Shown here in pieces: positions 31,205 to 51,639 of a DNA stretch of 64,000 nt (position 1 is the stretch's first letter; each line of letters begins with the position of its first letter). This DNA comes from Pseudonocardia sp. C8. GTDB lineage: Bacteria; Actinomycetota; Actinomycetes; Mycobacteriales; Pseudonocardiaceae. Location: the NCBI RefSeq assembly GCF_014267175.1, contig NZ_JACMTR010000002.1, forward strand, positions 2,319,501-2,383,500, read 5' to 3'. The notes below the pieces were generated by a model. It had not been told where the DNA came from and did no database searches. It was given only the letters and a program-made list of their open reading frames with translations. A program made the position numbers and the translations under genes.

Positions 31205-33271
31205 GTGACCGAGCAACGAGGCTCCACCGACTGGATGGTCGGCATCGACGTCGGAGGCACGTTCACCGACATCATCGGGCTCCACCGGACGACCGGTGAG
31301 ATCCGGGACGGCAAGGTGCTCTCGACCCGGCAGCAGGAAGAGGGGGTCCTGCAGGCGCTCGCGGCGATCGACGTCGCCGTCGACGAGGTGGCCGAGATCG
31401 TGCACGGCCACACGGTCGGCATCAACGCGCTGCTGAGCCGGGCCGGCGCCCGGACCGCGCTGCTCGCGACCCGCGGGCATCGCGACCTGCTCGACATCGG
31501 GCGGATGCACCGCGAGTTCGGCAACCGGTTCTACGACCCGACCTGGCTGCGCCCGCACCAGGAACGCCCGGTGGTCGAGCGGGAGGACCGGATCGGCGTA
31601 CCCGAGCGCATCCTGCACGATGGCGAGGTCCGGCTCGCGCTCGACGAGGACGCGGTGCGCGCCGCCGCTCGCGAGCTGGCCGGCCGGGAGATCGAGGCGG
31701 TCGGGATCTGCTTCATGAACTCCTACCGCAATCCCGAGCACGAGCAGCGCGCCGCGAAGATCCTCGCCGAGGAGCTCCCGGGCGCGTACGTCCAGACCTC
31801 CGCGCTGTACCCGGTCACGAAGGAACACGAGCGCACGACCACGGTCGCGCTCGACGCCTATGTCGGCCCGGCCGTCGTCGGCTACCTGAACCGCCTCGCT
31901 GACGCGCTCGCCGCGCAGAGGTTCACCGGCACGTTGTGGATCATGATGACGAACGGCGGGGTCGCTACCTACGAGGCCGCCGGCAAGGCGCCCGTCTTCC
32001 AGCTTGTGTCCGGGCCGGTCGGCGGGGTCACCGGCAGCATCGGCCTGGCACGCCAGTCCGCCCACCGCAACCTGCTCACGATGGACGTCGGCGGGACCAG
32101 CACCGACGTGGCGGCGATCCGGGACGCGCAGACCCCCCTGACCGACCTGTGGACCCTGGAGACCGGGCTGACCCTGACGATGCCGCTGGTCGACGTCGAG
32201 AGCGTCGGGTCGGGAGCCGGCAGCATCATCGGCCGCAACGCGCTCGGCAAGATCGCGGTCGGCCCCCGGTCGGCCGGGTCGGTCCCGGGCCCGGTCTGCT
32301 ACGGGACCGGCGGCACCGAGCCGACGCTGACCGACGCCTGCCTGGTCCTCGGCGTGCTGCAGCCGGACCTGTTCGCGGACGGCCGGATCCGTCCGGACCT
32401 CGACGCGGCCCGCGCGGCGCTCGAGGAGGTCGGGGCGACCTGGGGGATGAGCGGGATCGAGCTCGCCGAGGCGGCCTACCAGGTGGCTTGCGAGGACATC
32501 GCGGCGAAGATCCGCACGATCTCGGTCTACCGCGGGCTCGACGTCCGGGAGTTCGCGCTGCTGCCGTTCGGGTCGGCCGGGCCGATGCTCGCCGACCAGG
32601 TGGGGCAGATCCTCGGCGTGGAGACGGTCGTCGTGCCCGCCACGCCCGGTCAGTTCTCCGCACTGGGCCTGCTGCAGAGCGACCTGCGCGCGACGACGGC
32701 ACAGTCGGTGATGACCCCGCTGCTCCCCGGTTCCGCCGCGGAGATCGAGTCCGGGTTCGCCGGCCTGGAGTCGCGGCTGACCGAGGAGCTGACCGGGCAG
32801 GGCGTCGACATCGCCGGGCTGAGCTTCGACCGGGCCCTGTTCGGGATGTATCGCGGTCAGACCTGGGACAACCGGCTGCCCCTCGGGGCCGGCCGGATCA
32901 CCGAGGAGACCCTGCCGCGGATCGTCGCCGACTTCCATGCCTTCTACCAGGACTCCTACGGCTTCTCGGCCCCGGAGATCCCGGTGGTCGCCTCCACCCT
33001 CGAGGTCACCGCGGTGATCCCGCGCCCGCACCGGGTGCCGTCCGTGGCCCCGGAGCCGGGCGGGTCGCTGCTGGCGCACCGCACGCTGCGGGTGCCCGGC
33101 GCGGGGGAGAGCGTCGAGGTCCCGGTCCACGTCCGGGAACGGCTCGACCCCGGCGAGCGGGTGCCCGGCCCCGCGATCGTGGCCGAGCGGTTCGCCACGA
33201 CCGTCGTCCTCCCCGGGCGGTGCGCGCGCGTCGACGACGACGGCCTCCTGATCATCGAGAACCAGCGCTGA
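31205..33271 (+). CDS. HyuA-family ATPase subunit of an ATP-dependent carboxylase/hydrolase (copy 1)
   Basis: A 688-residue hydantoinase A/oxoprolinase family protein. It has the two actin-like nucleotide motifs, GIDVGGTFTDIIG near residues 13-25 and MDVGGTSTDVAAIRD near 292, and the family core GSGAGSIIGRNALGKIAVGP. Relatives are subunits of acetone and acetophenone carboxylases, N-methylhydantoinase, caprolactamase and 5-oxoprolinase; all use ATP to activate a carbonyl or carboxyl. AGGAGGCACGAG precedes GTG 31205. HyuB follows after nine bases and a zinc-ribbon gene after that. Presence of the zinc-ribbon protein favours a ketone carboxylase (inference). Confidence 0.88.
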   Translation: MTEQRGSTDWMVGIDVGGTFTDIIGLHRTTGEIRDGKVLSTRQQEEGVLQALAAIDVAVDEVAEIVHGHTVGINALLSRAGARTALLATRGHRDLLDIGRMHREFGNRFYDPTWLRPHQERPVVEREDRIGVPERILHDGEVRLALDEDAVRAAARELAGREIEAVGICFMNSYRNPEHEQRAAKILAEELPGAYVQTSALYPVTKEHERTTTVALDAYVGPAVVGYLNRLADALAAQRFTGTLWIMMTNGGVATYEAAGKAPVFQLVSGPVGGVTGSIGLARQSAHRNLLTMDVGGTSTDVAAIRDAQTPLTDLWTLETGLTLTMPLVDVESVGSGAGSIIGRNALGKIAVGPRSAGSVPGPVCYGTGGTEPTLTDACLVLGVLQPDLFADGRIRPDLDAARAALEEVGATWGMSGIELAEAAYQVACEDIAAKIRTISVYRGLDVREFALLPFGSAGPMLADQVGQILGVETVVVPATPGQFSALGLLQSDLRATTAQSVMTPLLPGSAAEIESGFAGLESRLTEELTGQGVDIAGLSFDRALFGMYRGQTWDNRLPLGAGRITEETLPRIVADFHAFYQDSYGFSAPEIPVVASTLEVTAVIPRPHRVPSVAPEPGGSLLAHRTLRVPGAGESVEVPVHVRERLDPGERVPGPAIVAERFATTVVLPGRCARVDDDGLLIIENQR

Positions 33272-33280
33272 GGAGAGACC

Positions 33281-35203
33281 ATGACCATCTCGGCCGAGAT
33301 CCCCTCCGCACCCGCGGAGTTCGAGCTCGACATCCTGCGCTACGGCCTCATCGAGGTCGCCCGCGAGATGAACGACGCCCTCATGCGCAGCGCATTCTCC
33401 CCGGTCTGCCGGGACATCCTGGACTGCACGACGGCGATCCACGCCCGCGGTGACGACGGGTGGGAGACCGTCGCCCAATGGGAGGGCTGCATGCAGCACG
33501 CCTTCACCTCACCGCACATCGTCAACTTCGTGATGGACGAGTTCGACCTCGACGCCCTGCAGGCCGGGGACGTCATCTTCGTCAACGACCCGTGGCGCGG
33601 GACCATCCACCAGTCCGACGTCAACCTGCTGCGCCCCGTGTTCGTGGACGGCCGGATCGAGTTCATGCTGCACTCGACCTCGCACCTGGTCGACCTCGGT
33701 GGACCGATCCCCGGGGGCTTCTCCAACGGGACGCAGACGGCGTTCGAGGAGCAGATCAAGCTGCCGCCGTCGCTGCTCTACGCGAACGACGTACCGGTCC
33801 GTCCGCTGTTCAACTTCATCCTCGAGAACAACCGGGTCCCGCAGCTGGTCCTCGGTGACCTGCGCGCCCTGCACGGCTGCCTCGTCGTCGGCGAGCGTCA
33901 GCTGCAGTCGCTCATCGAGCGGGGCGGCATCGAGAAGGTGAAGGCCGCGGGCCGGTACGCGGTCGAGGCCACCGAGCAGAGCATGCGCCGCGGGATCGCG
34001 GACATCCCGGACGGGGACTACACCGTCGAGGACTTCCTCGACGAGGACGGCGTCACCGACGAGCCGATCCCCGTGCGGGTCACCGTCAAGGTCCGCGGAG
34101 ACAGCATGGAGATCGACTTCTCCGGGTCCGGGCGACAGCCGCTGGGCAACTGCGGCACCGCGTGGTGCGAGGCGGTCCGCTGCATCGAGGCCGTGAAGCT
34201 GATGGTCGACCCGGCGACCCCGGTGAACAGCGGCACCCTGCGCCCGATCGAGACGCTGCTGCCGCAGGGCAGCGTCGTGTGCGTGCTGCCCCCGTCCAGC
34301 TGCTCCAACCACGCCGACATCGGTTCGCGCTGCATCAACGCGGTCGCGAGCGCGCTCAGCGATGCCATCGGGGACCGCTCGATCGCCTGCGACACCGGGA
34401 CCGCGCTGGTCGTCAGCGTCGGCGGGATCGACACCCGCCGCGGGCACGAGGGCAACCCGTGGGGCGCGTTCGCGCTCGCCGGCGGCGGGTGGGGCGGGAC
34501 CTGGAAGTCCGACGGCGTCTCGTTCTGCGTGACGCCGATCGGCAACTGCCGCACGTCGGTCCAGGAGCACGTCGAGATCGAGAGCCCCCTGATCGTCGCG
34601 CAGCACGAGATGCTCCTCGACACCGCGGGCGCGGGCGAGTACCGGGGTGGTCTCGGCTCGGTCTACACCCTCACGGCGCAGTCCGACACCGTCGTCACCA
34701 TCACCTGCGACCGGATCCGGGTCGGCGCGCCCGGCGCCGCCGGAGCCGGCCCCGGATCGCCCGCGTTCGGCTGGTACATCGCCGGCTTCGACCTCGCCCG
34801 GCACGGCGACCCGCTGGACCTGCGGGGGGCGGAGCCGCTGTTCGGCATGTTCGACGACGACGGCCGTCCCGACCCCAACGACGGCGGCTTCTGCCGGGGC
34901 GCACGCTACGACACCGGCAAGTTCTCGGGCATGGTGCTGAAGGCCGGGGACGCCGTCCGGTTCGTCATCGGCGGCGGGGGCGGCTGGGGCGATCCGCTCC
35001 GGCGCGATCCCGACCTCCTGGAGAGCGACCTCCGCAACGGCCTGTACAGCCCGGAGTTCCTCGCGCTGGCCTTCGGCGCCGTCGTCGTCGACGGCCGGAT
35101 CGACCGCGACGCCACGGCGGCGCGCCGCGCCGAGCTCACGCGCCGCCGCGACGCCGGTCAGTGGTCCGTGCCGATCGCCGCACCCGTCAACTGGACTCTC
35201 TAG
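33281..35203 (+). CDS. HyuB-family subunit of an ATP-dependent carboxylase/hydrolase (copy 1)
   Basis: A 640-residue hydantoinase B/oxoprolinase family protein, the partner of HyuA. Family sequence: NDALMRSAFSPVCRDILDC, GDVIFVNDPWRGTIHQSDV, HSTSHLVDLGGPIPGGFSNG, and the Gly-rich end FVIGGGGGWGDPLRRDP. It is shorter than the acetone carboxylase alpha subunit (about 770), so the enzyme is not a simple acetone carboxylase. GAGGAGAGACC precedes the ATG. It is 13 bases from the zinc-ribbon gene. A second, diverged HyuA/HyuB pair is at 47639-51639. Confidence 0.88.
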   Translation: MTISAEIPSAPAEFELDILRYGLIEVAREMNDALMRSAFSPVCRDILDCTTAIHARGDDGWETVAQWEGCMQHAFTSPHIVNFVMDEFDLDALQAGDVIFVNDPWRGTIHQSDVNLLRPVFVDGRIEFMLHSTSHLVDLGGPIPGGFSNGTQTAFEEQIKLPPSLLYANDVPVRPLFNFILENNRVPQLVLGDLRALHGCLVVGERQLQSLIERGGIEKVKAAGRYAVEATEQSMRRGIADIPDGDYTVEDFLDEDGVTDEPIPVRVTVKVRGDSMEIDFSGSGRQPLGNCGTAWCEAVRCIEAVKLMVDPATPVNSGTLRPIETLLPQGSVVCVLPPSSCSNHADIGSRCINAVASALSDAIGDRSIACDTGTALVVSVGGIDTRRGHEGNPWGAFALAGGGWGGTWKSDGVSFCVTPIGNCRTSVQEHVEIESPLIVAQHEMLLDTAGAGEYRGGLGSVYTLTAQSDTVVTITCDRIRVGAPGAAGAGPGSPAFGWYIAGFDLARHGDPLDLRGAEPLFGMFDDDGRPDPNDGGFCRGARYDTGKFSGMVLKAGDAVRFVIGGGGGWGDPLRRDPDLLESDLRNGLYSPEFLALAFGAVVVDGRIDRDATAARRAELTRRRDAGQWSVPIAAPVNWTL

Positions 35204-35216
35204 AGAGGGGAACCCC

Positions 35217-35477
35217 ATGTCCGTCGACCGGCTGCTCTTCCCACGCCCCGACACCGACCGGGTCTCGGTGGAACGTGTCCCGGTGGGGGAGACCTGCCCG
35301 CACTGCGCGAGCACGCACGTCGCCCGGTACCCGGTGGCCAACCACCTCGGACCGCGGATGGTCGTGAAGTGCCAGGACTGCTTCACCCACCTGTCGGTCA
35401 CGCGTCCCGCACCCGAGGACCACTGGCCCGCATGGCGGTCACCGACGCGTGACTGGGCGCCGTCCCGGCTGGGCTGA
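35217..35477 (+). CDS. small zinc-ribbon protein, candidate third subunit of the HyuA/HyuB enzyme (copy 1)
   Basis: An 86-residue protein with a C-x2-C-x21-C-x2-C zinc ribbon (CPHC and CQDC). The same spacing and the words RYPV and VVKCQxC recur in the 81-residue protein encoded at 47379, which also sits beside a HyuA/HyuB pair. In acetone and acetophenone carboxylases a small subunit accompanies the large ones, and for acetone carboxylase it is reported to bind zinc. These proteins may be a reduced form of that subunit (inference). GAGAGGGGAACCCC precedes the ATG. Start-to-stop spacing in the operon is tight. Confidence 0.8.
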   Translation: MSVDRLLFPRPDTDRVSVERVPVGETCPHCASTHVARYPVANHLGPRMVVKCQDCFTHLSVTRPAPEDHWPAWRSPTRDWAPSRLG

Positions 35478-35508
35478 CCGACCGTCACGACCACAGGAGG
35501 AGGACACC

Positions 35509-37086
35509 ATGTCGGTTCCCGCGACGCCGCTGGGCCGGCTGTACGCCCGGACCCACGCCGAGCACGCGGACCGCGCGGCCGTCCGCGACGACCGCCGGGA
35601 GCTGACCTTCGGCGAGCTCGGCACCCGCTCCCGGCGGCTCGCGCAGGCGTTCCGGCGGGCCGGGGCCGGACCGGGGGAGCGGATCGCACTGCTCTCGCCG
35701 AACTGCTGCGAGTGGGTCGAGGTCGAGCACGCCGCGGCACTCGGCGGGCTTCTCCGGGTCGGTCTGCTCCCGCGGCTGCACACCGCGGAGCTCGCCCACA
35801 TCACCGCCGACAGCGAGCCCGCCGTCGTCGTGGTGGACGGCGAGTGGCTCGCCGTCCACGGACGGGGCTGGATCCCCGACAGCGTCGCGCAGGTCGTCGT
35901 CCTCGGCCCGACGGACGTACCCGCCGGGTGCGTGCCGTTCGAGGAGTTCGTCGCCGCGGGCACCGACGACGAGCTCCCGCTGCCGGAGGCCGATGCCGAC
36001 GCGTGGCTGCTGTACACGTCGGGCTCGACGGGCCACCCGAAGGGCGTCCGCACCACCCACGCCAGCATCGGGGCGCTGATCCGCAACGCCCTCGACGCGC
36101 TTCCCCCGATCGGCCCCGGTGACACCGCGTTGCACACGGCTCCGGTCAGCCACTTCAGCGGGGGGATCGCGGCCGTCCTCACCGCGGCCGGCGGCCTCAA
36201 CGTGCTCCACCGGGCGTTCGAGCCCGCGCGGGTCGCCGACCTCGCCGAGCAGGGGGAGATCACCGTGCTCCCGCTCGTCCCGACGATGATCACCATGCTG
36301 CTGGAGGAGCTCGACCGGCGGGGCACGCCGTCCGGCCGGGTCGGCGACGTCCGCCTGCTGCCGTACGCCGGCTCCGCGATCCGGCCCGACCGGGCCGAGC
36401 GGGCACGCGCCTGGTTCGGCGAGGCGATGCAGCAGGTCTACGGCGCGAGCGAGGCGATGCTGCCGATCACCACCCTGCGACCGGGGGACCACGTTCCGAC
36501 CGTGAACGAGCGAGGTCTGCCACGTCTGGCGTCCGCCGGACGGGTCACCCGGCACGTCGAACTGGAGATCGTCGACGAGCAGCGGCACCCGCTGCCGCCC
36601 GGCTCGGACGGGGAGATCCGGACCCGGGGCGAACACGTCGGACCCGGCTACTGGCGCCAGCCGGAGGCCACCGCCGAGACTTTCTCCGACGGCTGGGCAC
36701 ACACCGGCGACGTCGGCTACCTCGACGAGAACGGCTACCTGTTCATCCTCGACCGCCGCAAGGACATGATCATCACCGGCGGGTTCAACGTGTATCCCAG
36801 CGAGATCGAGAACGTCGTCTCCTCGATACCGGGTGTCCACGAGGTCGCCGTGGTCGGCGCCCCCAGCGACCGCTGGGGGGAGGAGGTCACCGCGTTCGTC
36901 GTGCTCGCGGACGGCACCGGGTCCGACGTGGAACGGATCATCCGGCACTGCCGGGAACACCTCGGCGGCTACAAGGTGCCGAAATCGGTCGTCGTCGTCG
37001 ACGAACTACCCAAGACCGGAACAGGAAAGATCCAGAAGCAGGTCCTGCGTGCCGATCTGTGGCGCGGCCGGGACCGCCGGGTCTGA
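35509..37086 (+). CDS. AMP-forming acyl-CoA synthetase
   Basis: A 525-residue adenylate-forming ligase activating a carboxylic acid to its CoA ester. Motifs: LLYTSGSTGHPKGVRTTH (phosphate loop), QQVYGASEAMLP, HTGDVGYLDENGYLFILDRR (A7), DMIITGGFNVYPSEIENV (A8 hinge) and the C-terminal GTGKIQKQVL with the catalytic Lys. CAGGAGGAGGACACC precedes ATG 35509. Following the HyuA/HyuB/zinc-ribbon genes, it could activate the carboxylation product, as benzoylacetate-CoA ligase does after acetophenone carboxylase (inference). It resembles the synthetase at 58868. Confidence 0.92.
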   Translation: MSVPATPLGRLYARTHAEHADRAAVRDDRRELTFGELGTRSRRLAQAFRRAGAGPGERIALLSPNCCEWVEVEHAAALGGLLRVGLLPRLHTAELAHITADSEPAVVVVDGEWLAVHGRGWIPDSVAQVVVLGPTDVPAGCVPFEEFVAAGTDDELPLPEADADAWLLYTSGSTGHPKGVRTTHASIGALIRNALDALPPIGPGDTALHTAPVSHFSGGIAAVLTAAGGLNVLHRAFEPARVADLAEQGEITVLPLVPTMITMLLEELDRRGTPSGRVGDVRLLPYAGSAIRPDRAERARAWFGEAMQQVYGASEAMLPITTLRPGDHVPTVNERGLPRLASAGRVTRHVELEIVDEQRHPLPPGSDGEIRTRGEHVGPGYWRQPEATAETFSDGWAHTGDVGYLDENGYLFILDRRKDMIITGGFNVYPSEIENVVSSIPGVHEVAVVGAPSDRWGEEVTAFVVLADGTGSDVERIIRHCREHLGGYKVPKSVVVVDELPKTGTGKIQKQVLRADLWRGRDRRV

Positions 37087-37149
37087 CAACCGACGGAAAC
37101 ACCGGTCGGGGCACACCGTGTCCGACCGACCGGCCAAGTGGAGGATGCG

Positions 37150-37884
37150 TTGAGTCACCACAAGGTACCCACCCCGAAGGACCGGAACCTGTTCTTCGCG
37201 TGGAGTACGTACACCACCGACTACGACACCTACGCCCGCTGGTACGACGAGGAACACATCCCGCAGGTGATGGACGCGCCGGGAATGGTCGGTGCACAGC
37301 GGTTCCTGATCGCGGACACCAAGCCTCTCCCCGGGGTGGAGTCCCTCGACTTCGGACATCTCGCGATGTACGAGCTCGACGGTTCGGCCCAGGGCTTCCG
37401 CGACGAGGTCAAGCGCAATCTGATGTCGCAGGAGATGGTGCTGCCGGACTTCATGGAGCAGCCATTCCGGGCGCTGTTCCTCTCCGCGGTGAGCGAGCCG
37501 TTCCACACCGAGGCCCTGGCGCAGGTGGAGGACCTCGACGACCGGCAGATGTTCTTCGCGTGGAGCCGGCACACCACCGACGACGCGACGTTCGCACGGT
37601 GGTACGACGAGGAACACATCCCGCAGATCCTCTCGGCACCGGGGATGCTGCGCGCGCAGCGGTTCGCGGTGTCCGGCGTGAAGCCGCTGCCCGGCGTGGT
37701 GACCCCGGACCTGGGCCACCTGGCGATCTACGAGACCACCGGTGGCCTCGAGGGTTTCCGTGCGGAGGTGAAGCGGCAGCTGATGTCGGGGGAGATGGTG
37801 CTGCCGGACTTCATGGTCAGCCCGTTCGCCACGATGTTCCTCACGGCGGTCAGCCCGTTCTTCCTGGCCGCGGACGTGCAGTGA
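37150..37884 (+). CDS. internally duplicated EthD-like dimeric alpha/beta-barrel protein
   Basis: A 244-residue protein made of two tandem ~120-residue copies of an EthD/DUF-type ferredoxin-like domain, marked by FFAWS, ARWYDEEHIPQ, APGM, GAQRF/RAQRF and MVLPDFM in both halves. Such domains normally pair as homodimers; here one chain can form the pair. No cofactor motif is visible. GGAGG lies six bases before TTG 37150, which I prefer over GTG 37138, which has no ribosome site. Its stop overlaps the GTG of the aldehyde dehydrogenase. Roles in this fold class include decarboxylation, isomerisation and auxiliary functions; none can be chosen. Confidence 0.75.
   Translation: MSHHKVPTPKDRNLFFAWSTYTTDYDTYARWYDEEHIPQVMDAPGMVGAQRFLIADTKPLPGVESLDFGHLAMYELDGSAQGFRDEVKRNLMSQEMVLPDFMEQPFRALFLSAVSEPFHTEALAQVEDLDDRQMFFAWSRHTTDDATFARWYDEEHIPQILSAPGMLRAQRFAVSGVKPLPGVVTPDLGHLAIYETTGGLEGFRAEVKRQLMSGEMVLPDFMVSPFATMFLTAVSPFFLAADVQ
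37181..37884 (+). repeat. 360-base in-frame tandem duplication inside the barrel gene
   Basis: Copy 1 begins at 37181 and copy 2 at 37541, a period of exactly 360 bases with no net indel. The DNA is still alike: ACGACGAGGAACACATCCCG and TGGTGCTGCCGGACTTCATG occur in both copies. Copy 2 ends with the gene. Confidence 0.85.
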
Positions 37885-39347
37885 CGGTCGTGCGGACGGA
37901 CGTCGCCGGGGTGCCGGTCCCGCATCTCGGGTCCGCCTACGTCGGGGGTGACTGGGTGTCCGCCACCGGGCCCACCCGGCCGGTGGTCTCGCCGGCGTCC
38001 GGACGCGTCGTGACGGAGGCGGTGTTGCCGTCCGTGGACGAGGCACGGGCGGCGCTCGATCGTGCGAGCGGTCCCGAGGGCCGGGCCTGGTCGGCCACCG
38101 AGGTGTCCCGACGGGTTGCGGTGTGCCGCCGGTTCTGTGACGCGCTGGAACGGCGGTTCGACGACATGGGAGCGGTCTGGGCGGTCGAGGCGGGCATGCC
38201 GGTCCGCTACAGCAGGACGCTGCACCGCTTCGGCGCGGCCGGCGCGTGGCGCGCAGCCCTCGACTCGGCCGAGGACGCGCTGCGCGACGAGCGACGTGAC
38301 TCGCCGCTGGGGGAGGTGCTCGTCCGCCGGGAGCCGGCCGGCGTGGTCGCGGCCGTCATGGCGTTCAACGGCCCGCTCGTGACCGTCGCGTCGAAGGTCG
38401 TCCCGGCTCTGCTGGCCGGGTGTCCGGTCGTGGTCAAGGCGGCCCCCGAGTCGCAGCTCGTCATGCGCCTGGTCGCCGAGTGCGCCGCGGACGCCGGCGT
38501 CCCCGCCGGCGCCCTGAGCATCCTCTGCAGTGAGGTCGACGTCGCCCGTGAGATCACCGCGGACCCCCGCGTCGCCCTGGTCTCGCTGACCGGTGGTCGC
38601 GCCGCCGCGCAGGAGATCATCGATGCGACCCGGCAGCGGTTCGCCCGCACCCATCTCGAGCTGGGCGGCAAGTCGGCCGCCCTGGTGCTCGACGATGCAC
38701 CGGTCGATGCCGTGCTGCGTTCCCTCGTCCCGGGGGCCACCGGAGGTGCCGGTCAGGTGTGCGCGCTGCTGTCCCGGATCCTGGTGCCGGAGAGCCGGCA
38801 CGACGAGCTCGTCGCCGCACTCGGCACCGCCTGGGAGAGCCTGCCGATGGGGGATCCGCTCGACCCCGCGACCGCGGTCGGGCCGCTGATCTCTGCGGCC
38901 GCTCGCGAGCGCACCGAGGGTTTCGTCGAGCGCGCGGTCGCGGACGGGGCCCGGATCGTGTGCGGCGGCCGCCGGCCTCCCGGCCTCGACGCAGGCTACT
39001 TCCTCGAGCCCACCCTGCTCTCCGGCGCCTCTCCGGACTCGGAGATCGTGCGCCGCGAGGTCTTCGGCCCGGTCACGGTCGTGCAGTCGTTCCGCGATCT
39101 CGAGGAGGGGATCCGGCTGGCCGAGGACACTGAGTACGGCCTCGCCGCCACGGTGTACACCCGCGACCGGGATCTGGCGATGGACGTGGCCGGCCGGCTC
39201 ACCGTCGGCTCGGTCGCGATCAACACCTTCGGCCCGACCGTGACGGCACCGTTCGGCGGCCGGAAGTGCTCCGGATGGGGACGCGAGGGCGGCCCGGAGG
39301 GCATCCGGGAGTTCACCGAGCTCAAGCAGATCGTCACCGGACCCTGA
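37881..39347 (+). CDS. aldehyde dehydrogenase family protein
   Basis: A 488-residue aldehyde dehydrogenase, diverged from the two mutually similar ones at 25311 and 51801. Catalytic residues are kept: LELGGKSAALVLDDAPVDA (Glu) and GAGQVCALLSRILV (Cys). The cofactor-site sequence is unusual, reading AAVMAFNGPLVTVASKVVPA where IxPWNxP is normal, and SLTGGRAAAQEI where FTGST is normal. The GTG start overlaps the previous stop (GTGA). Altered cofactor loops suggest a different cofactor preference or a CoA-acylating or semialdehyde-type substrate (inference). Confidence 0.88.
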   Translation: MTVVRTDVAGVPVPHLGSAYVGGDWVSATGPTRPVVSPASGRVVTEAVLPSVDEARAALDRASGPEGRAWSATEVSRRVAVCRRFCDALERRFDDMGAVWAVEAGMPVRYSRTLHRFGAAGAWRAALDSAEDALRDERRDSPLGEVLVRREPAGVVAAVMAFNGPLVTVASKVVPALLAGCPVVVKAAPESQLVMRLVAECAADAGVPAGALSILCSEVDVAREITADPRVALVSLTGGRAAAQEIIDATRQRFARTHLELGGKSAALVLDDAPVDAVLRSLVPGATGGAGQVCALLSRILVPESRHDELVAALGTAWESLPMGDPLDPATAVGPLISAAARERTEGFVERAVADGARIVCGGRRPPGLDAGYFLEPTLLSGASPDSEIVRREVFGPVTVVQSFRDLEEGIRLAEDTEYGLAATVYTRDRDLAMDVAGRLTVGSVAINTFGPTVTAPFGGRKCSGWGREGGPEGIREFTELKQIVTGP

Positions 39348-43591: not shown

Positions 43592-43636
43592 GGACCGGCC
43601 GCGTGCCAGGGACAGATCCCTCCCTGGGACGTGTGT

Positions 43637-43644
43637 CATATATC
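43637..43644 (+). promoter_or_regulatory. ATATAT element (CATATATCGTGC) upstream of NTF2-like gene
   Basis: AT-rich element 87 bases before GTG 43731. It is preceded by a short dyad CCAGGGA/TCCCTGG (43608-43629) that may terminate the AraC gene. Confidence 0.45.
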
Positions 43645-43730
43645 GTGCATGGTTCGTCGCGTGCCGGTGGTCATCGTGTCCTCCGGCCCGCCGGCGCCGG
43701 CGGTTCCCGACGAGTCCAACGGAGGACGTC

Positions 43731-44078: not shown

Positions 44079-44138
44079 CCCCGGCCGACCCCGTCTCGTC
44101 ACGCATCCCCGCAACCCCGCATCTCCAGGGAGAAGCCC

Positions 44139-44897
44139 ATGTCCGGAATATCGGACCGCTCGATCATCGTCACCGGCGGCGCCAGCGGGATCGGTGAGGC
44201 CGCGGCGCGGCTGTTCGCCGCGAACGGCGCCCGGGTCACCATCGCGGACGTCAGCACCGGCGCGGGTGAGGAGCTCGCCCGCGAGCTCACCGGGAAGGGC
44301 CTGACGGCCCAGTTCGTGACGGCGGACGTCACCGACGAGGAGCAGGTCGCGGCCATGGTCGCGGCCGCGGAGGAGGCCTACGGCCGGCTCGACGGTGCCT
44401 TCAACAACGCCGGCGTGCCGAACCACGGCAAGGACCTCGCGGACCTGACCCGGGCCGAGTTCGACCGGGTCTTCGCGATCAACGTGACCGGGCCGTTCCT
44501 GTGCATGAAGCACGAGATCCCGGCCCTGCTGCGGGCCGGCGGCGGCTCGATCGTCAACACGGCCTCGGTGGGCTCGTTCATCTACATCCCGAAGGCCGCC
44601 GAGTACACCGCGTCCAAGCACGCGCTGGCCGGGCTCACGAAGGCCGCGGCCGCCGAGTACGGCGAACACGGCATCCGGGTCAACGCGATCGGCCCGTCCA
44701 CGTCGAAGACGCCGATGTACATGGAGTACCTCAAGCTGAACCCGGCGTACGAGGAGACCGTCGCGGCGACGCACGCGTTGCGGCGGGGCAGCGAGCCGGT
44801 CGAGCAGGCCGAGGCCGCGATGTGGCTGCTGTCCGACGCGGCCTCCTACGTCACGGGGGTGACCCTGGCCGTCGACGGCGGCTACACCCTCTACTGA
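44139..44897 (+). CDS. short-chain dehydrogenase/reductase
   Basis: A 252-residue classical SDR: TGGASGIGEA (cofactor), IADVST (Asp, NAD-type), NNAGVPNHG, NTASVGSF (Ser), YTASKHALAG (Tyr, Lys) and GVTLAVDGGYTLY at the end. AGGGAGAAGCCC precedes the ATG. It lies in a unit with the NTF2-like gene and converges with the racemase-like gene 19 bases away. Likely oxidises a secondary alcohol or a 3-hydroxyacyl intermediate. Confidence 0.92.
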   Translation: MSGISDRSIIVTGGASGIGEAAARLFAANGARVTIADVSTGAGEELARELTGKGLTAQFVTADVTDEEQVAAMVAAAEEAYGRLDGAFNNAGVPNHGKDLADLTRAEFDRVFAINVTGPFLCMKHEIPALLRAGGGSIVNTASVGSFIYIPKAAEYTASKHALAGLTKAAAAEYGEHGIRVNAIGPSTSKTPMYMEYLKLNPAYEETVAATHALRRGSEPVEQAEAAMWLLSDAASYVTGVTLAVDGGYTLY

Positions 44898-44916
44898 CCG
44901 TGCGGCCCGCGGCCGG

Positions 44917-46002
44917 TCACGCCGGGGCCGGGCCGACCCCCCAGCGCTGCAGCGCCTCCTCGATCGTCGAGGCGTCCCGGGTGGCGTGGGGGGTCCGGCT
45001 CAGCCGCGGAGCGGGGGCCGGCTGCGGGCCGTCCACCGCGTCGAGCAGGGTGCCGCGCTCGCGCAGGTGCGGGTCCTCGACGGCCTCCGCCATGGACAGC
45101 ACGGGCGTGACACAGGCGTCGAGACGGTCGAAGATCTCCGTCCACTCGGCCCGGGTCCGCTCGGCGAACCGGTCGGCGATCCGCTGCTTCACCTCCGGCC
45201 ACCGGTCGCGGTCCCACTGGTCGGGCAGCGTGGCCGGATCGATGCCGAGACCCTCGAGCAGCCGGGACCAGAACTGGGGTTCGATGCTGCCGACCGCCAT
45301 GTACTGCCCGTCCGCGGTGGTGTAGACGTCGTAGAACGGCGCCCCGGTGTCGAGCTCGTTGCGGCCGGGTTCGCCCGGCCACCGGCCCTGGGCCTGCCGG
45401 CTCCAGATGCCGGTCATCAAGAGGCTGACCCCGTCGACCATCGCGGCGTCGACGACCTGGCCCCGGCCGGACCGCTCCCGGTCGTGCAGCGCCGTGAGGA
45501 TGCCGAAGGCGAGCAGCAGGCCGCCCCCGCCGTAGTCGGCGACGACGTTCAGCGGCGGGACCGGGCGCTCGCCGTGGCGGGCGAAGGACCGGAGCGCACC
45601 GGTGAGCGAGAGGTAGTTGATGTCGTGCCCGGCTTCCCACGCACGCGGGCCGTCCTGCCCCCAGCCGGTCATCCGTCCGTAGACCAGCCGCTCGTTGGCC
45701 GCCAGGCACGGCTCCGGCCCCAGCCCGAGTTTCTCCATGACCCCGGGGCGGAAGCCCTCGATGAGCACGTCGGCCCGTTCGATCAGCTCCTTCGCGCGGT
45801 CGAGGTCGTCGGTGGACTTCAGGTCGAGGTTCAGCAATGGGCGGCCGCGGGTAAGCGCGCCGCCGTCGACCGGTGGGCGGGGCCGATCCACCCGGATGAC
45901 GTCGGCACCCGCGTCGGCCAGCAGCATCGCCGCGAAGGGCCCCGGCCCCAGGCCGACGAACTCGACCACCCTGGTGCCGCTCAGCGGGCCTGACCGATCC
46001 AT
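44917..46002 (-). CDS. alpha-methylacyl-CoA racemase-like protein, second copy
   Basis: A 361-residue CaiB/BaiF protein of the racemase branch: VYGRMTGWGQDGPRAWEAGH then DINYLSLTG (catalytic His) and LNVVADYGGGGLLL (catalytic Asp; usual GDFGGG reads ADYGGG), then VVDAAMVDGVSLL. It is diverged from the copy at 8906. The ATG at 46002 is preceded by only a weak GAGTGTGAG. An ATATAT element lies 170 bases upstream. A second racemase in one region suggests two methyl-branched substrates or two branch points. Confidence 0.88.
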   Translation of the reverse strand: MDRSGPLSGTRVVEFVGLGPGPFAAMLLADAGADVIRVDRPRPPVDGGALTRGRPLLNLDLKSTDDLDRAKELIERADVLIEGFRPGVMEKLGLGPEPCLAANERLVYGRMTGWGQDGPRAWEAGHDINYLSLTGALRSFARHGERPVPPLNVVADYGGGGLLLAFGILTALHDRERSGRGQVVDAAMVDGVSLLMTGIWSRQAQGRWPGEPGRNELDTGAPFYDVYTTADGQYMAVGSIEPQFWSRLLEGLGIDPATLPDQWDRDRWPEVKQRIADRFAERTRAEWTEIFDRLDACVTPVLSMAEAVEDPHLRERGTLLDAVDGPQPAPAPRLSRTPHATRDASTIEEALQRWGVGPAPA

Positions 46003-46174
46003 CTCACACTCCGTCCGACGGGCACCTGCGCCCGAGATCCGAGAACGTCGACCGCGTCGATCGACTGCTGTCACACGCCGCCCCGTGCGTCGTCGCGCGG
46101 CCACGCTCCGGGGCGTCGGGCGATGCGCCTCTCCGGTGGACGGTCGCCCGACCACCGGGTTCGCACCTCGGCAG

Positions 46175-46185
46175 TATAATATATT
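46175..46185 (-). promoter_or_regulatory. ATATAT element (TATAATATATT) upstream of the racemase-like gene
   Basis: The most AT-rich copy of the recurring element, between two minus-strand genes; it also lies 15 bases beyond the end of the AraC gene at 46200. Reading the minus strand, AATATATTATAC contains good -10-like hexamers for the racemase gene, which would have a ~165-base leader. Confidence 0.5.
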
Positions 46186-46199
46186 CCGTTTCCGCGCGG

Positions 46200-47183
46200 T
46201 CAGCTCCTGCGCGCGGTCGCCGACGGGAGCTCGCCGAAGCGGTCGCGGTACCAGGTGGCGAACCGTCCGGGGTGGAAGAAGCCCCAGCGCGCCGCGACCT
46301 CGCTGACCGGCCGGCCGGTGCCCGAACCGAGCTCGAGGTGGACCCGGTCGAGCCGGGCCGTGCGCACGTACGCGGTGGGGGACATGCCCGCCACCTCCCG
46401 GAATCCCGCCTGCAGGGCCCGGACGCCGATCCCGGCGACGGCGGCGAGGTCGGCGGTGCTCAGCTGGAGGTCGGGGTGCATGTCGACGTGGTCCATGGCC
46501 TCCCGGACCCGGGAGCGCGTGGTGTGCGCCGGACGGCCGTGCAGCGCCGGGGAGATCCGGCTGGGCACGGTCATCAGGAGCTGGGTCATCAGCGCGGACT
46601 CCATCTCCTGCCGCGCCGCCGGCATCGTGGCCAGCCCGCCGGGACGTTCGAGCTCGGCGTAGAGGAACCCGGCGGTGGCGAGCAGCGCCCGGCCGGGGCC
46701 ACCGGCCAGGTCGAAGGTCAGGGCGGGGTCGAGGCCGCCGTCGAGCGGATGGCCGGCCAGCCGCGCCGCGTGCGCCTCGAGCAGTTCCTTCGGCAGCTTC
46801 ACCACGTACTGGGTGGCGTCGGGGCTCCACCGCACGGTCAGGGGCGCGTCCGGCCGGAAGAGGACTCCGGTCTCGCAGGCTGCCACCGTCGAGCGGATCC
46901 CGCGCTGACCGGCCGTGCTCCAGCCGGTCACCGGCAGGTTGACGTGGTAGCACAGCCGCATCGGGGGTCCGTCGATCACCACGTCGGCGCCGTACCGGAG
47001 CCGGCCCAGGGTCACACGGCCGGACGGCGCGAGATCGAGGCGGAAGTCCAGCGATCGACCGTCGCGCATCCGCATCTCGTGCCGCGCGAAGGTCCTGCTG
47101 ATCTCTTCGCGGGCGGCGTCCGGATCGGTGGTCCGGATGGCCACGGAGTGCCCGGATGCCGGCTCCTGTCCGTGTCGTCCCAT
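46200..47183 (-). CDS. AraC-family transcriptional regulator, paralog 2
   Basis: A 327-residue regulator built like the product of 42611: binding domain with MRLCYHVNLPVTGWSTAGQR and QYVVKLPKELLEAHAARL, and C-terminal helix-turn-helix pair (LSTADLAAVAGIGVRALQAG, MSPTAYVRTARLDRVHLEL). AGGTGGGGAC lies just before ATG 47183, so I prefer it to the ATG at 47201. Divergent from the zinc-ribbon/HyuA/HyuB set at 47379, with an ATATAT element between, and so probably its regulator. The racemase-like gene follows downstream on the same strand. Confidence 0.9.
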   Translation of the reverse strand: MGRHGQEPASGHSVAIRTTDPDAAREEISRTFARHEMRMRDGRSLDFRLDLAPSGRVTLGRLRYGADVVIDGPPMRLCYHVNLPVTGWSTAGQRGIRSTVAACETGVLFRPDAPLTVRWSPDATQYVVKLPKELLEAHAARLAGHPLDGGLDPALTFDLAGGPGRALLATAGFLYAELERPGGLATMPAARQEMESALMTQLLMTVPSRISPALHGRPAHTTRSRVREAMDHVDMHPDLQLSTADLAAVAGIGVRALQAGFREVAGMSPTAYVRTARLDRVHLELGSGTGRPVSEVAARWGFFHPGRFATWYRDRFGELPSATARRS

Positions 47184-47224
47184 GTCCCCACCTGTCGTCA
47201 TCGATCGCTCAAGACATTATGCGC

Positions 47225-47232
47225 CATATATT
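47225..47232. promoter_or_regulatory. ATATAT element (CATATATTCTTG) between AraC gene 2 and the second HyuA/HyuB set
   Basis: AT-rich element 42 bases before the AraC start and 147 before the zinc-ribbon gene start; ACATTATG lies beside it. It can serve either divergent unit. Confidence 0.5.
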
Positions 47233-47378
47233 CTTGCCGCTCCAGCCCTGGGATCTGCGGTTTGCGTACGGCCTCGTGCGTTCGCGGGCTGTCCGTCGGT
47301 GTGCTGCGGCCCTACCGTCCCGCTCCAGTGGCGTGCAGGCGTCTTCCTCGCAGGGACCGACAGTGGAGTCGTACCGAC

Positions 47379-47624
47379 ATGAGCAGTGACACGCGCAGCG
47401 ACACCCGGGACGGCACGGACCCGGCCGACCGGCCGCTGTTCCTCGAACGCGAACCCGTCGACGGCAGCTGCCCCCGGTGCGGGGCGGCGGACCTGCGCCG
47501 CTACCCGGTGAACTCCGAGGGCGGCTGGTTCGACGTCGTCAAGTGCCAGGCCTGCCTGCACTCGGTCAGGCGCGAACCCGGACCACGCCTCGGGCCGATC
47601 CAGCTCCTCTCCGACCTGCTGTGA
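47379..47624 (+). CDS. small zinc-ribbon protein, candidate third subunit of the HyuA/HyuB enzyme (copy 2)
   Basis: An 81-residue protein with C-x2-C-x21-C-x2-C (CPRC and CQAC), identical in spacing to the protein encoded at 35217 and sharing RYPV and VVKCQ. Its N-terminus is acidic and Asp/Arg-rich. In this locus it precedes HyuA, whereas in copy 1 it follows HyuB, so the association has survived a change in gene order. Its stop codon overlaps a possible GTG start of HyuA. Same proposed role: small zinc subunit of an ATP-dependent carboxylase (inference). Confidence 0.8.
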   Translation: MSSDTRSDTRDGTDPADRPLFLEREPVDGSCPRCGAADLRRYPVNSEGGWFDVVKCQACLHSVRREPGPRLGPIQLLSDLL

Positions 47625-47638
47625 CGAAGGGATCGACG

Positions 47639-49690
47639 ATGATCGCAGTCGACGTGGGCGGCACCTTCACCGACGTGGTCGCGCTCCGGGACGGAGCCAT
47701 CCGGACGACCAAGGTGTCCACCGACTACACCGACGTGACCCAGGCCGTGCTCGACGGCGCCCGGACCCTCGGGGTCGAGGACGCCCGGGTGTTCAACCAC
47801 GCCAGCACGCACGGGCTCAACGCGGTGATCACCCGCAACCTGCCGAAGATCGGGTTCCTGGCGACCGAGGGCCACCGGGACATCCTCGACATGGGGCGGG
47901 TGTGGCGGCCCGCGAGCGCGATCCTCGATCCGCGCTGGCGACGCAGCTTCGGTGATGCCGCGCGGCCGCTGGTGCCCCGCTACCTGCGTCGCGGGATCCG
48001 CGAGCGGATCACCGCCGACGGCCGGATCCTGTTCGGTCTGGACGAGGAGCAGGCCCGCGAGGAGCTGGAGGTGCTGCGCACCTGTGGCGTCACCGGCGTG
48101 GCCATCTGCCTGATCAACGCCTACCTGAACCCCGCGCACGAACGCCGGCTGCGCGAGCTCGTGCACGACGTGCTGGGCGACGTGCCGTGCTCCATCTCGT
48201 CCGACGTCTCCCCGCTGGCGAAGGAGTACACCCGCGCGTCGACCACGGTCGTCGACGCGCTGATGAAGCTGATCTACTCCGACTACACGGCGACCCTGGA
48301 AAAGGGGCTCGGCGAGCTCGGCTTCACCGGCCGGCTCAACTTCGCCGACTGCGCCGCCACCCTGGTGCCCGCCGAGCGCGCCATGGAGCAACCTTTCCGG
48401 ATCGTGTTCTCCGGCCCGGCCGCGGGCACGGTCGCGAGCGCCCACTTCGGATCGCTGATCGGCGAGTCCCACCTGCTGTGTGCCGATGTCGGCGGCACGT
48501 CCTGTGACATCAGCGTCGTCACCGGCGGCACGCCCTTCGTCGACACGACCTTCGAACTGGAGCACGACCTCGTCGTCAACGCGTTGGCCAACGAGGTCAC
48601 CGCGATCGGCGCCGGCGGCGGCAGCCTGGTGTCGATCGGCCAGACCGGCGAGATCCAGGTCGGACCCGGCAGCGCCGGCTCGAACCCGGGCCCGGCCTGC
48701 TACGGCCGGGGCGGCAGCCGGCCGACGACCACCGACACCTGCGTCCTGATCGGGATCCTCGACCCGCAGCGGTTCGCGGGCGGATCGGTGAACCTCGACG
48801 CCGGCCTCGCGCGTGCCGCGTTCGAGAGCCTGGACTCGGAGTTCACGTTCGCCCAGCGGGTGCGGTACGCCTACGAGATGGCGGTGCACACCATCGCCGA
48901 GGGCATCTTCAACGTGGCGATCAAGAACGGCGTCGACCCGCGTGACTTCACGCTGATGGCCTACGGGTCGGCCGGGCCGATGCTGCTGCCCGCGGCGATG
49001 GACGCGGTGCACTGCAAGCAGGTCGTCGTGCCCCCGAACCCGGGGCTGTTCTCGGCCCTCGGTCTGCTGTCGGCCGACCAGGTGTTCACCGCCAACCGCA
49101 GCGTCTACACGACCCTCGGCCCCGAGGTGGCCGACCGCATCGACGCGGTGTTCACCGAGATGGAGGAGCAGCTGCGCGAGCGGCTCGACCCGAACGCGCA
49201 GGTGACGCTGGAGCGCAGCTTCGACGGTCACCTGGCCGGGCAGAGCTGGGAGACACCGTTCGTTCCGGTGCCCGACGGCACCATCGACGCCGACGCGATC
49301 GCGGCCATGACCGCCGCGTTCCACGACACGTACCAGGAGCGCTCGGGCAACCGCTTCGAGTACCTGCCGGTGGAGGGCGTGACGTTCCGCGTGCGCGCCG
49401 TGCTCGACACCGAGAAGGTCACCTTCCCCGAGCTGCCCGAACGCGGGCCCGACGAGCCACTCGCTCCGGCTCGGACGGTCACCCTGCGCTACTTCGGCGA
49501 GCTCGGCGGCGACGACGAGGACGCCGGGCAGGAGGTGCCGGCCTACGACCGCACCGCGCTGCGGGCGGGCGACGTGATCGCCGGCCCGGCGATCGTCGAC
49601 GAGGGACTGTCGACCACCCACATCGCAGCCGCGCAACGGCTCACCGTCGGCCGGTACGGCGAGCTGGTCATCCGGAGGAAGGCAGCATGA
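47639..49690 (+). CDS. HyuA-family ATPase subunit of an ATP-dependent carboxylase/hydrolase (copy 2)
   Basis: A 683-residue hydantoinase A/oxoprolinase family protein with nucleotide motifs AVDVGGTFTDVVAL near the N-terminus and ADVGGTSCDISVVTGG near residue 282, and core GAGGGSLVSIGQTGEIQVGP. It is clearly diverged from copy 1 (31205). ATG 47639 has GAAGGGA eight bases upstream; a GTG at 47621 overlapping the previous stop would add six residues. It overlaps HyuB by ATGA. The product should activate a carbonyl or carboxyl substrate with ATP for HyuB; the exact substrate cannot be read from sequence. Confidence 0.88.
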   Translation: MIAVDVGGTFTDVVALRDGAIRTTKVSTDYTDVTQAVLDGARTLGVEDARVFNHASTHGLNAVITRNLPKIGFLATEGHRDILDMGRVWRPASAILDPRWRRSFGDAARPLVPRYLRRGIRERITADGRILFGLDEEQAREELEVLRTCGVTGVAICLINAYLNPAHERRLRELVHDVLGDVPCSISSDVSPLAKEYTRASTTVVDALMKLIYSDYTATLEKGLGELGFTGRLNFADCAATLVPAERAMEQPFRIVFSGPAAGTVASAHFGSLIGESHLLCADVGGTSCDISVVTGGTPFVDTTFELEHDLVVNALANEVTAIGAGGGSLVSIGQTGEIQVGPGSAGSNPGPACYGRGGSRPTTTDTCVLIGILDPQRFAGGSVNLDAGLARAAFESLDSEFTFAQRVRYAYEMAVHTIAEGIFNVAIKNGVDPRDFTLMAYGSAGPMLLPAAMDAVHCKQVVVPPNPGLFSALGLLSADQVFTANRSVYTTLGPEVADRIDAVFTEMEEQLRERLDPNAQVTLERSFDGHLAGQSWETPFVPVPDGTIDADAIAAMTAAFHDTYQERSGNRFEYLPVEGVTFRVRAVLDTEKVTFPELPERGPDEPLAPARTVTLRYFGELGGDDEDAGQEVPAYDRTALRAGDVIAGPAIVDEGLSTTHIAAAQRLTVGRYGELVIRRKAA

Positions 49691-51639
49691 GCACCGACAC
49701 CAGCGCGACCCGGATCCGCGACCTGTCCGACGACGATTTCCGCTCGGCCTACGACTGCGACCGGTTCACCGCGTCCGTCGTCGTCAACCGGCTCAAGTAC
49801 GCCGTCGAGCACATGAGCACGGCGTTCCTGCGCGAGGCGTTCTCCCCGATCATCCGGGACTGGTACGACTTCGCGTGCACGATCAGCGGCCCGCCGGAGC
49901 AGGACCACCGGATGGCCGTGGTGAGCAACAGCCTCACCGTGTTCCTCGGGACGATGGCCGATGCCTGCCGGATCGCGGTCGAGGAGTTCGGCGCGGACAA
50001 CCTGTCCCCGGGTGACGTGCTGATCTGCAACGACCCCTACCGCGGCGGGCGGCACGTCAACGACGTCCTGTTCGTGCGTCCCGTGTTCGTCGACGGCCGG
50101 ATCGTGTCGTTCGTGAACATGTGCGCCCACCAGCTCGACATGGGTGGGACGGTGCCCGGGGGCTTCTCCGCGACCAAGCGATCCGTCTACGAGAACGGTC
50201 TCGTCATCCCGCCGATGCTGCTGTGGTCGGGCGACGAGCCGGTGCGCTCCACGTTCAGCCTCGTGTTCGACAACTCCCGGTTCGGCGGCCTGCTGCTGCC
50301 CGACTTCATGAGCACCCTGCACCAGCTCCAGCTCGGCGAGCGGCTGGTCCGGGAGAACATCGAGCGGTACGGTCTGCAGGCCTACCTCGGTGCGCTCGAC
50401 TACTCCTGTGACACCTCGGCCGAGCTGATGCGCGAGGCGATCGCGCGGGTGCCGGACGGCGACTACCGGGGTCACGCCACGATCGACGCGGACGGACTCG
50501 ACGACACGCTCGACTACACCGTGCGGGTCACGCTGCGCAAGCGCGGCCACGAGATCGAGGCGGATCTGTCGGGAACCTCGGCGCAGGCCCGCACCTGCAT
50601 CAACTCCGGGGTGACCGACGCCAAGACCGCACTCGGCGTGGCACTGACGATGTTGCTGGACCCGGAGATCCCCTTCACGTCCGGGACCTGGCGGCACGTC
50701 GACCTCGTCGCCCCGCCGGGCACGGTGGTCACCGCGATGCCGCCCGAGGGTGCCCCGATGATGTTCTGGGAGACCTCCGGAGCGCTGATCGCGGCGATCT
50801 TCCGGGCGCTCAATCCGGTGCTCGGGGAGAACGCGGTGGGCGGTGACTACGGCTCGACCAACACGCACAACGCCAGTGGCGTCCGCGCGGACGGCACCCC
50901 GTGGACGAGCGCGACCCAGTGCGGTGGCGAGCACGGGCCGTGGGGTGCGACGAAGGAGGGCGACGGCGACAGCTACACGGTGCTGTTCAACCTGAACAAC
51001 CTCGACCCGGCAACGGAGACGATCGAGCACGACTCACCCGTGGTCGTGCTGCGCAAGGAGCATGCGACCGACACCGGGGGAGCGGGCGCGCACCGCGGCG
51101 GTGCGGCCAACCTCAAGGACACGCTCTGGCTGACCGATGCCGAGCAGTACCTGTCCCCGTTCCGCACGAAGGACCCGAGCGGGGTCGGGGCGAACGGCGG
51201 CGCGGCCGGACCCAACGGCGCGATGTGGATCTTCCCGCCGCGCGACGGGGAGCTGCCGGACGCGCTGGTGGGCACCGCCGACGACGTCTACACGGCGAGC
51301 ACCCCGGTCGCCGGTGTGCTGGACCCGCGGACGAAGGCGCTGGACGCGGAGAACGGTGTCTACCACTACTTCGCCAGCGAGAAGTGCTGGCGCACCACTG
51401 CCGGCTCGGTCCTGCGCTGCCTCACCAACGGTGGCGGCGGCTGGGGGGACCCGTTCGAGCGGGACGTGCAGAAGGTGCTCGCCGACGTGCGCGACGAGTA
51501 CGTGAGCGTCGAGGGCGCGGCCCGCGACTACGGGGTCGTCGTGCTCGGCGACCCGCACCGTGACCCGGAGGGGCTGCGGTTCGACGAGGAGGCCACCGCG
51601 CGACTCCGGGCACGGCCTCGCGGCGGAACACCGTCCTGA
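49687..51639 (+). CDS. HyuB-family subunit of an ATP-dependent carboxylase/hydrolase (copy 2)
   Basis: A 650-residue hydantoinase B/oxoprolinase family protein: STAFLREAFSPIIRDWYDF, GDVLICNDPYRGGRHVNDVL, HQLDMGGTVPGGFSATKR and the closing RCLTNGGGGWGDPFERDVQK. It is coupled to HyuA by a four-base ATGA overlap. A strong hairpin follows its stop. It lacks the extra length of the acetone carboxylase alpha subunit. Compared with copy 1 it carries a different substrate-side region, so the two complexes probably handle different carbonyl substrates (inference). Confidence 0.88.
   Translation: MSTDTSATRIRDLSDDDFRSAYDCDRFTASVVVNRLKYAVEHMSTAFLREAFSPIIRDWYDFACTISGPPEQDHRMAVVSNSLTVFLGTMADACRIAVEEFGADNLSPGDVLICNDPYRGGRHVNDVLFVRPVFVDGRIVSFVNMCAHQLDMGGTVPGGFSATKRSVYENGLVIPPMLLWSGDEPVRSTFSLVFDNSRFGGLLLPDFMSTLHQLQLGERLVRENIERYGLQAYLGALDYSCDTSAELMREAIARVPDGDYRGHATIDADGLDDTLDYTVRVTLRKRGHEIEADLSGTSAQARTCINSGVTDAKTALGVALTMLLDPEIPFTSGTWRHVDLVAPPGTVVTAMPPEGAPMMFWETSGALIAAIFRALNPVLGENAVGGDYGSTNTHNASGVRADGTPWTSATQCGGEHGPWGATKEGDGDSYTVLFNLNNLDPATETIEHDSPVVVLRKEHATDTGGAGAHRGGAANLKDTLWLTDAEQYLSPFRTKDPSGVGANGGAAGPNGAMWIFPPRDGELPDALVGTADDVYTASTPVAGVLDPRTKALDAENGVYHYFASEKCWRTTAGSVLRCLTNGGGGWGDPFERDVQKVLADVRDEYVSVEGAARDYGVVVLGDPHRDPEGLRFDEEATARLRARPRGGTPS

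Follow-up and report, generated by a model that had tools for sequence, protein, structure and literature searches.

Introduction

ATP-dependent enzymes of the HyuA/HyuB superfamily have been described as three branches: hydantoinases (Hyd) encoded by two genes, and two branches that bear a gamma subunit, the acetone carboxylases (Acx) and the acetophenone carboxylases (Apc) (PMC5214803, in the parts available). The same parts of that paper tie the small zinc subunit to carboxylases and place no gamma in any hydantoinase complex. Caprolactamase is presented as an enzyme of two subunits (PMC8453981, excerpt), and what the small subunit does in acetone carboxylase is said to be unclear (PMC5543143, excerpt). 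Here we analyse two loci in a 64,000-nt stretch of the genome of Pseudonocardia sp. C8, hereafter the window, each of which encodes HyuA, HyuB and a small zinc-ribbon protein. The small protein is the dedicated partner of one branch of HyuAB, and we read each locus, with modest confidence, as encoding an ATP-dependent enzyme built of HyuA, HyuB and a small third subunit that is obligatory, an enzyme most likely ketone-carboxylating.

In an unrelated system, VdcD is needed for the activity of VdcC and is described as its allosteric activator, with a fold reported as a three-stranded ribbon (PMC8379154, in the sections available). No report of a third subunit for the HyuAB branch studied here was found in the available parts of the open-access literature, from which subscription journals are mostly missing. 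The Aromatoleum genes CAI06286-88 encode what we presume to be a biotin-type carboxylase. The apk 'ketone carboxylase' of R. rhodochrous GD02 has been matched to these genes, which differ from the ones considered here (PMC8461187, excerpt), and by that presumed biotin identity it was set aside as an example of another type. HyuAB of unknown role are mentioned with an actinobacterial microcompartment (PMC10470539, excerpt).

The small protein is linked to one branch of HyuAB

The frames of HyuA1, HyuB1, HyuA2 and HyuB2 are all open, and PF05378 and PF01968 (HyuA) and PF02538 (HyuB) matched far above their curated cut-offs at both loci. Both loci belong to the HyuA/HyuB (hydantoinase/oxoprolinase/ketone carboxylase) superfamily. 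Family scans began upstream of the gene starts, from 30983 for HyuA1, 47477 for HyuA2 and 35449 for the neighbouring CoA ligase. The sequence DVGGTFTD, which we take to be the ATP motif of HyuA, was seen in the translations of HyuA1 and HyuA2. HyuB2 residues H123, D126 and H148 align with H123, D126 and H148 of Apc-beta, its metal ligands (counted by eye on the alignment); the His/Asp metal site of HyuB1 was judged by eye from the translation alone.

Next to each pair lies a gene for a protein of 81 or 86 residues, 13-14 bp from its neighbour, after HyuB in locus 1 and before HyuA in locus 2 (Table 1). Both proteins contain C-x2-C-x21-C-x2-C, RYPV and VVKCQ; the frame of small protein 2 is part of a longer open reading frame (ORF) in the ORF list. 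The loci agree with the original prediction, a note made from the letters of the window alone, in motifs, gene order and size of the small proteins, and HyuB is, as it stated, shorter than the alpha subunit of acetone carboxylase (640 and 650 residues against 776). Owing to the third gene, neither window locus is a cluster of two large subunits only, as Hyd clusters are.

When small protein 1 was compared with the 6.24-Mb genome (E≤10), the sole matches apart from its own gene were to a third HyuAB locus (E 2e-7) and to small protein 2 (E 2e-6, 42% over 51 residues). Since the genome-wide matches fall only at HyuAB loci, the likeness of the small proteins is not due to chance. A profile search added a fourth copy, also before HyuA. 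The genome has 11 HyuB genes, four of them with the small partner. Besides the two window loci, these lie at C2:2.409 Mb and at about C2:3.804 Mb.

A forward scan with a ten-sequence alignment of the small protein, run on one genome per species (84,980 species), gave 79 distinct named loci from the best 80 of 83 confirmed matches. They come from Actinomycetota, Burkholderia and Caballeronia and from metagenome genomes labelled Gammaproteobacteria, Myxococcota, Desulfobacteraceae and others. Adjacency, defined as HyuA at most 400 bp downstream or HyuB at most 400 bp upstream on the same strand, was found at 78 of the 79; at the lone exception (L065) an ORF intervenes that by eye resembles a flavin monooxygenase. 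HyuA was seen but no HyuB at two of the 79 loci, L077 and L118. Among 200 genomes of the same bacterial family the small protein is present in 15, and 23 of its 25 matches there adjoin HyuAB. The two exceptions are a truncated gene at a locus without HyuAB (L039) and a 21-residue match (L052). At L039 (7622-8134) the small-protein frame continues beyond the ribbon into unrelated sequence, and HyuAB is absent from the vicinity; this gene is likely the remnant of a lost locus.

The reverse test used HyuB2 as query in the 200 genomes of the family, where 45 HyuB places were found at E≤1e-60; the forward and reverse sets overlap in genomes, several named loci being records of this family as well. 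The small gene precedes HyuA at all 26 places with at least 52% identity to HyuB2. Below 52% identity a partner was found at 11 of 19, which makes 37 of 45 overall; it was not found at the seven fetched of the eight remaining places, G106:C15 being left out. None of 44 control HyuB loci had the small partner. These comprise seven loci of the same genome, seven from the reverse test and 30 further loci from relatives, the last picked after rows known to have a partner had been dropped; the set leaves out G028:C59, G037:C30, G037:C726 and G006:C108.

More widely, a profile search of 5.8 billion proteins gave 377 relatives of the small protein, some with a precomputed PF26358 assignment. A search across the phylum found it in at least 5 of 396 genomes (best 14 candidates per genome scored, which is not an abundance measure), and HyuA or HyuB adjoins six of its eight matches; neither was seen in the short flanks of the other two, which score weakest (E about 5e-4). 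The original prediction had argued that the small protein is a real component, since its association with HyuAB outlasted both a change of gene order and the divergence of the large subunits, and had proposed scoring adjacency across genomes as a check. Genomics strongly supports this proposal, and the adjacency count came out in its favour in both genome sets.

Both triads also occur in Nocardia (L067, L072-L075, L078, L081, L086 and L093), where they are arranged divergently at a distance of a few kb and each has a small gene; the window triads, by contrast, share a strand, with 12 kb between them. One degradation route may employ both enzymes, and their substrates probably differ.

The HyuB tree separates partner-bearing from gamma-bearing HyuB

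Two HyuB trees were built, one of 89 rows (tree 1; SH-aLRT supports, midpoint root) and one of 58 rows (tree 2; quick LG+G4). All 67 partner-bearing rows of tree 1 lie on one side of a single branch (SH-aLRT 98), and the 20 partner-bearing rows of tree 2 likewise share one branch (99). HyuB beside PF08882 genes and the HyuB of the same genome with gamma-like domains form a separate group (99). The partnerless rows used for comparison are of the same bacterial family and uncharacterised, several of them on long branches.

The original prediction had implied a link between the small protein and the gamma subunit of the ketone carboxylases. A shortened, diverged gamma would account for several likenesses: both are small four-cysteine zinc proteins beside HyuAB of an ATP-dependent superfamily, a gamma-like domain may be encoded after HyuB, as small protein 1 is after HyuB1, or form a C-terminal extension of HyuB, and partner-bearing and gamma-bearing HyuB have extra length in common. 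Median matched HyuB lengths are 649 residues for partner-bearing (n=29), 643 for gamma-bearing (n=7) and 577 for partnerless loci (n=35), a gap that comes mostly from HyuB2 segment about 521-554, filled in fewer than 30% of 39 partnerless rows. Nevertheless, comparison of the small-protein profile with that of gamma gave a Prob of only 8.7 with the wrong cysteine pair aligned. The 21 residues between the cysteine pairs contrast with roughly 40-60 in gamma-like domains, and the gamma subunits of AcxABC and Apc are 15-20 kDa. A joint clade of partner-bearing and gamma-bearing HyuB was rejected on tree 2 (AU p 6.3e-5), in line with the separate branch on which the HyuB of these loci stand. The two small proteins and eight relatives also had no PF08882 match (E≤1), a weak point, because this model matched nothing in the Pseudonocardia genome, its gamma-like domains included. 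By profile, cysteine spacing and HyuB tree the gamma origin was rejected, and we regard it as improbable. From these sequence comparisons the group fits neither described type, with its HyuB on the partnerless side and a third subunit that does not appear to be gamma.

Gamma-like domains, called by cysteine pattern and alignment, were present at 7 of the 44 control loci, as judged with a gamma profile whose members include some of these domains from the Pseudonocardia genome. The domain is fused to the C-terminus of HyuB at L153 (5681-9415) and L155 (6315-9020), both of the same genome, at L167 (8216-10621) and at L228 and L230, while at L156 it is a separate gene directly after HyuB. Such natural fusions would fit binding of gamma at the HyuB C-terminus.

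The order with the small gene after HyuB occurs in the deeper branches, locus 1 included (a depth that depends on the midpoint root), and the order before HyuA in a 58-row clade, where it has reverted once (L130). The switch between the two orders thus looks like a single ancient event on this tree. HyuB of two loci labelled Klebsiella pneumoniae (L104 and L114) group with gammaproteobacterial, proteobacterial and myxococcal metagenome genomes; these, and L103 outside the tree, are probably mislabelled metagenome bins.

The predicted ribbon, its zinc-less form and VdcD

The small protein is predicted to fold as a three-stranded, TFIIS-like ribbon (pLDDT 86.5). Foldseek gave no match at E≤0.001, and the TFIIS likeness comes from re-alignment of Foldseek's own candidates only; that gamma is missing from the fold list was not counted as evidence. 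Against the sequences of solved structures nothing was significant, the best values being E 0.06 for a ribosomal protein and 0.08 for ShdD.

All four cysteines are lost at 11 of the 79 named loci and in the fourth copy of the Pseudonocardia genome (L157), and also at 12 of 13 fetched HyuB2-like loci, several of them the same as named loci, and on two Rhodococcus plasmids. The zinc-less form has the same gene position beside HyuAB, and the pattern YPV-SE-GW-VK-Q--L-S--R-P---LG is common to both forms. Its model (nine sequences, best of five models) keeps the three strands (pLDDT 83.3), with two short helices in place of the first knuckle. On tree 1 ten zinc-less rows are nested inside zinc-bearing rows (2 changes). 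Since loss of the cysteines left both the remaining pattern and the place of the gene unchanged, zinc is most likely structural, a scaffold for the ribbon; the conserved surface of the model is likely a contact site. The zinc ribbon of the original prediction stands for the four-cysteine motif of both window proteins, but it is not what defines the group.

The same results bear on a rival view in which the operon merely houses the small zinc protein, whose role would be that of a regulator or metal chaperone. Zinc ribbons of such shape are common in transcription proteins, and generic zinc-ribbon families were among the weak Pfam matches. This explanation is nonetheless highly improbable. In different phyla the gene is strictly tied to a single branch of HyuB, the existence of a form that lacks zinc argues against cysteine-borne metal delivery, and the second locus has an AraC gene of its own.

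The nearest described relative of the small protein, as far as profile scores tell, is VdcD. The VdcD model (NF041205, NCBIfam, cut-off 30 bits) was the first NCBIfam match of small protein 2 (19.3 bits) and of five of eight relatives, all below the cut-off; six of the eight scored 16.5-22.7 bits and two were unlisted. In profile comparison the small protein and VdcD align in register (Prob 92.6). With VdcD and ShdD it has in common a C-x2-C-x21-C-x2-C three-stranded zinc ribbon (here predicted) and a mass below 10 kDa. It differs in that VdcC, the partner of VdcD, is an unrelated UbiD-type, prFMN enzyme, whereas here HyuA/HyuB adjoin at 78 of the 79 named loci. No UbiD was present at the two annotated Rhodococcus plasmid loci, the loci considered for it. 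Several relatives, P0011, P0015 and P0019 among them, bear the public name 'vanillate/4-hydroxybenzoate decarboxylase subunit D', a label that would mislead pathway annotation at HyuAB loci.

A probable three-subunit enzyme, carboxylase or hydrolase

Neighbouring genes up to 6 kb from HyuB were counted for loci of the same bacterial family, those with cut windows being dropped. An AMP-forming CoA ligase was nearby at 23/29 partner-bearing against 2/35 partnerless loci (gamma-bearing, 3/7), a short-chain dehydrogenase (SDR) at 23/29 against 3/35, and a zinc alcohol dehydrogenase at 9/29 against 0/35, with marker queries mostly taken from partner-bearing loci, where close relatives are easier to find. 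As loci within one family are not independent, the counts were repeated by sequence cluster, with 10/15 against 2/21 for the CoA ligase (p 8e-4) and 11/15 against 3/21 for the SDR (p 5e-4). At L091 the order is small protein, HyuA, HyuB, SDR and a beta-keto-acid cleavage enzyme (BKACE), and BKACE is also near L037. On the two Rhodococcus plasmids the triad lies beside an FAD oxidoreductase, SDRs, a CoA ligase and a nitronate monooxygenase. By analogy, these neighbours would be the set expected for a route from alcohol to ketone, beta-keto acid and acyl-CoA. The Apc gene context presumably serves the same alcohol-to-ketone-to-acyl-CoA route, in acetophenone degradation. The neighbour set therefore favours ketone carboxylation over lactam hydrolysis.

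The alternative is that the three subunits form an ATP-dependent hydrolase acting on lactams, hydantoins or imides, in which HyuA would phosphorylate the amide carbonyl, HyuB would supply metal-bound water and the small subunit would merely stabilise HyuB. Much of what weighs against carboxylation speaks for it. At both loci the sequences of HyuA and HyuB resemble caprolactamase more than acetophenone carboxylase; at locus 1 the caprolactamase CapA and CapB models, the best among curated ones, scored 415 + 193 bits against 250 + 123 for acetophenone carboxylase, all far below cut-offs. Among solved structures, chains of N-methylhydantoinase and caprolactamase match best by sequence, the ATP and metal subunits are the same as in CapAB and Hyd, and partner-bearing HyuB fall beside partnerless ones, the presumed hydrolase side of the tree. 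CoA ligases and SDRs would also fit a pathway with lactam or imide hydrolysis, and outside the family both are rarer near the triad (15/39 and 24/39). BKACE is near only 2 of 66 partner loci. The scores behind the kinship with VdcD lie below the cut-off or come from a VdcD profile made of two near-identical sequences, and VdcD is not listed among the NCBIfam matches of small protein 1.

Against the hydrolase, partnerless HyuAB of the same family, which are expected to be hydrolases, rarely lie near a CoA ligase or SDR, and partner-bearing ones usually do. BKACE at L091 fits a beta-keto-acid product. HyuB of these loci is about 70 residues longer than that of Hyd and has a CoA-ligase and dehydrogenase context. 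Known hydantoinases are reported with two genes only and without a third subunit (PMC5214803, in the parts available), in contrast to the triads here. We consider the hydrolase fairly doubtful, and carboxylation rather than hydrolysis is, on balance, the reaction that we expect. The description in the original prediction, a three-part ATP-dependent carboxylase or hydrolase, stands, and gene context leans towards the first.

In the ketone-carboxylating enzyme, HyuA would phosphorylate the ketone carbonyl with ATP to give an enol-phosphate, and the activated substrate would move to the metal site of HyuB, where bicarbonate or CO2 would be joined to it. The resulting beta-keto acid would be handed on by the neighbouring CoA ligase, or elsewhere by BKACE. 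The small subunit would be a VdcD-like three-stranded ribbon that probably docks on HyuB and holds or activates it without taking part in catalysis, zinc only pinning the ribbon. That the small protein binds the large subunits is very probable; an activating or stabilising role is also probable, to a lesser degree.

More tentatively, at somewhat below an even chance, we propose a third branch of biotin-free ATP-dependent ketone carboxylases that arose from the two-subunit hydantoinase side rather than from the acetone/acetophenone carboxylases, with an independently recruited VdcD-like activator, from which zinc was lost in one sub-branch. If true, two (de)carboxylase superfamilies that are not related would both depend on the same small module for activation. 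That another branch has a small subunit of its own, seemingly unrelated to gamma, and that a zinc-less form exists in nature make it possible to ask directly what subunits of this kind do, and the same comparison could ask whether they mark carboxylation. The loci also point to genes annotated as hypothetical protein, hydantoinase or vanillate decarboxylase subunit D as likely parts of CO2-fixing ketone degradation.

Gene layout of the window

The features of the two triads and their surroundings are given in Table 1. The CoA ligase gene is probably in one operon with that of small protein 1.

Table 1. Genes of the two HyuA/HyuB loci and their neighbours in the 64,000-nt window.
Feature	Position	Strand	Family match or remark
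HyuA1, ATP-binding (ASKHA) subunit	31205..33271	+	PF05378 and PF01968
HyuB1, metal-site subunit, 640 aa	33281..35203	+	PF02538
Small zinc-ribbon protein 1, 86 aa	35217..35477	+	13 bp after HyuB1; ribosome-binding site GAGAGGGG upstream (by eye)
AMP-forming acyl-CoA ligase	35509..37086	+	PF00501, PF13193; start 31 bp after small protein 1
Aldehyde dehydrogenase	38001..39347	+	family match; stretch scanned, not a fixed gene start
Cytochrome P450	41234..42430	-	
Short-chain alcohol dehydrogenase (SDR)	44139..44897	+	
CoA-transferase family III	44917..46203	-	
AraC-type regulator	46200..47201	-	divergent from second triad
Small zinc-ribbon protein 2, 81 aa	47379..47624	+	14 bp before HyuA2
HyuA2, ATP-binding (ASKHA) subunit	47639..49690	+	
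HyuB2, metal-site subunit, 650 aa	49687..51639	+	start overlaps HyuA2 stop
Aldehyde dehydrogenase	51759..53264	+	

Between the CoA ligase and the first aldehyde dehydrogenase, the window encodes at 37138-37884 a 248-residue protein of two tandem repeats, which by eye follow FAWSxxTTD...ARWYDEEHIPQ...PGM.RAQRF. Its sole family match was DUF4286, below the cut-off, and we take the repeats to be EthD-like. Genes resembling it were found at 7 of 66 partner-bearing loci.

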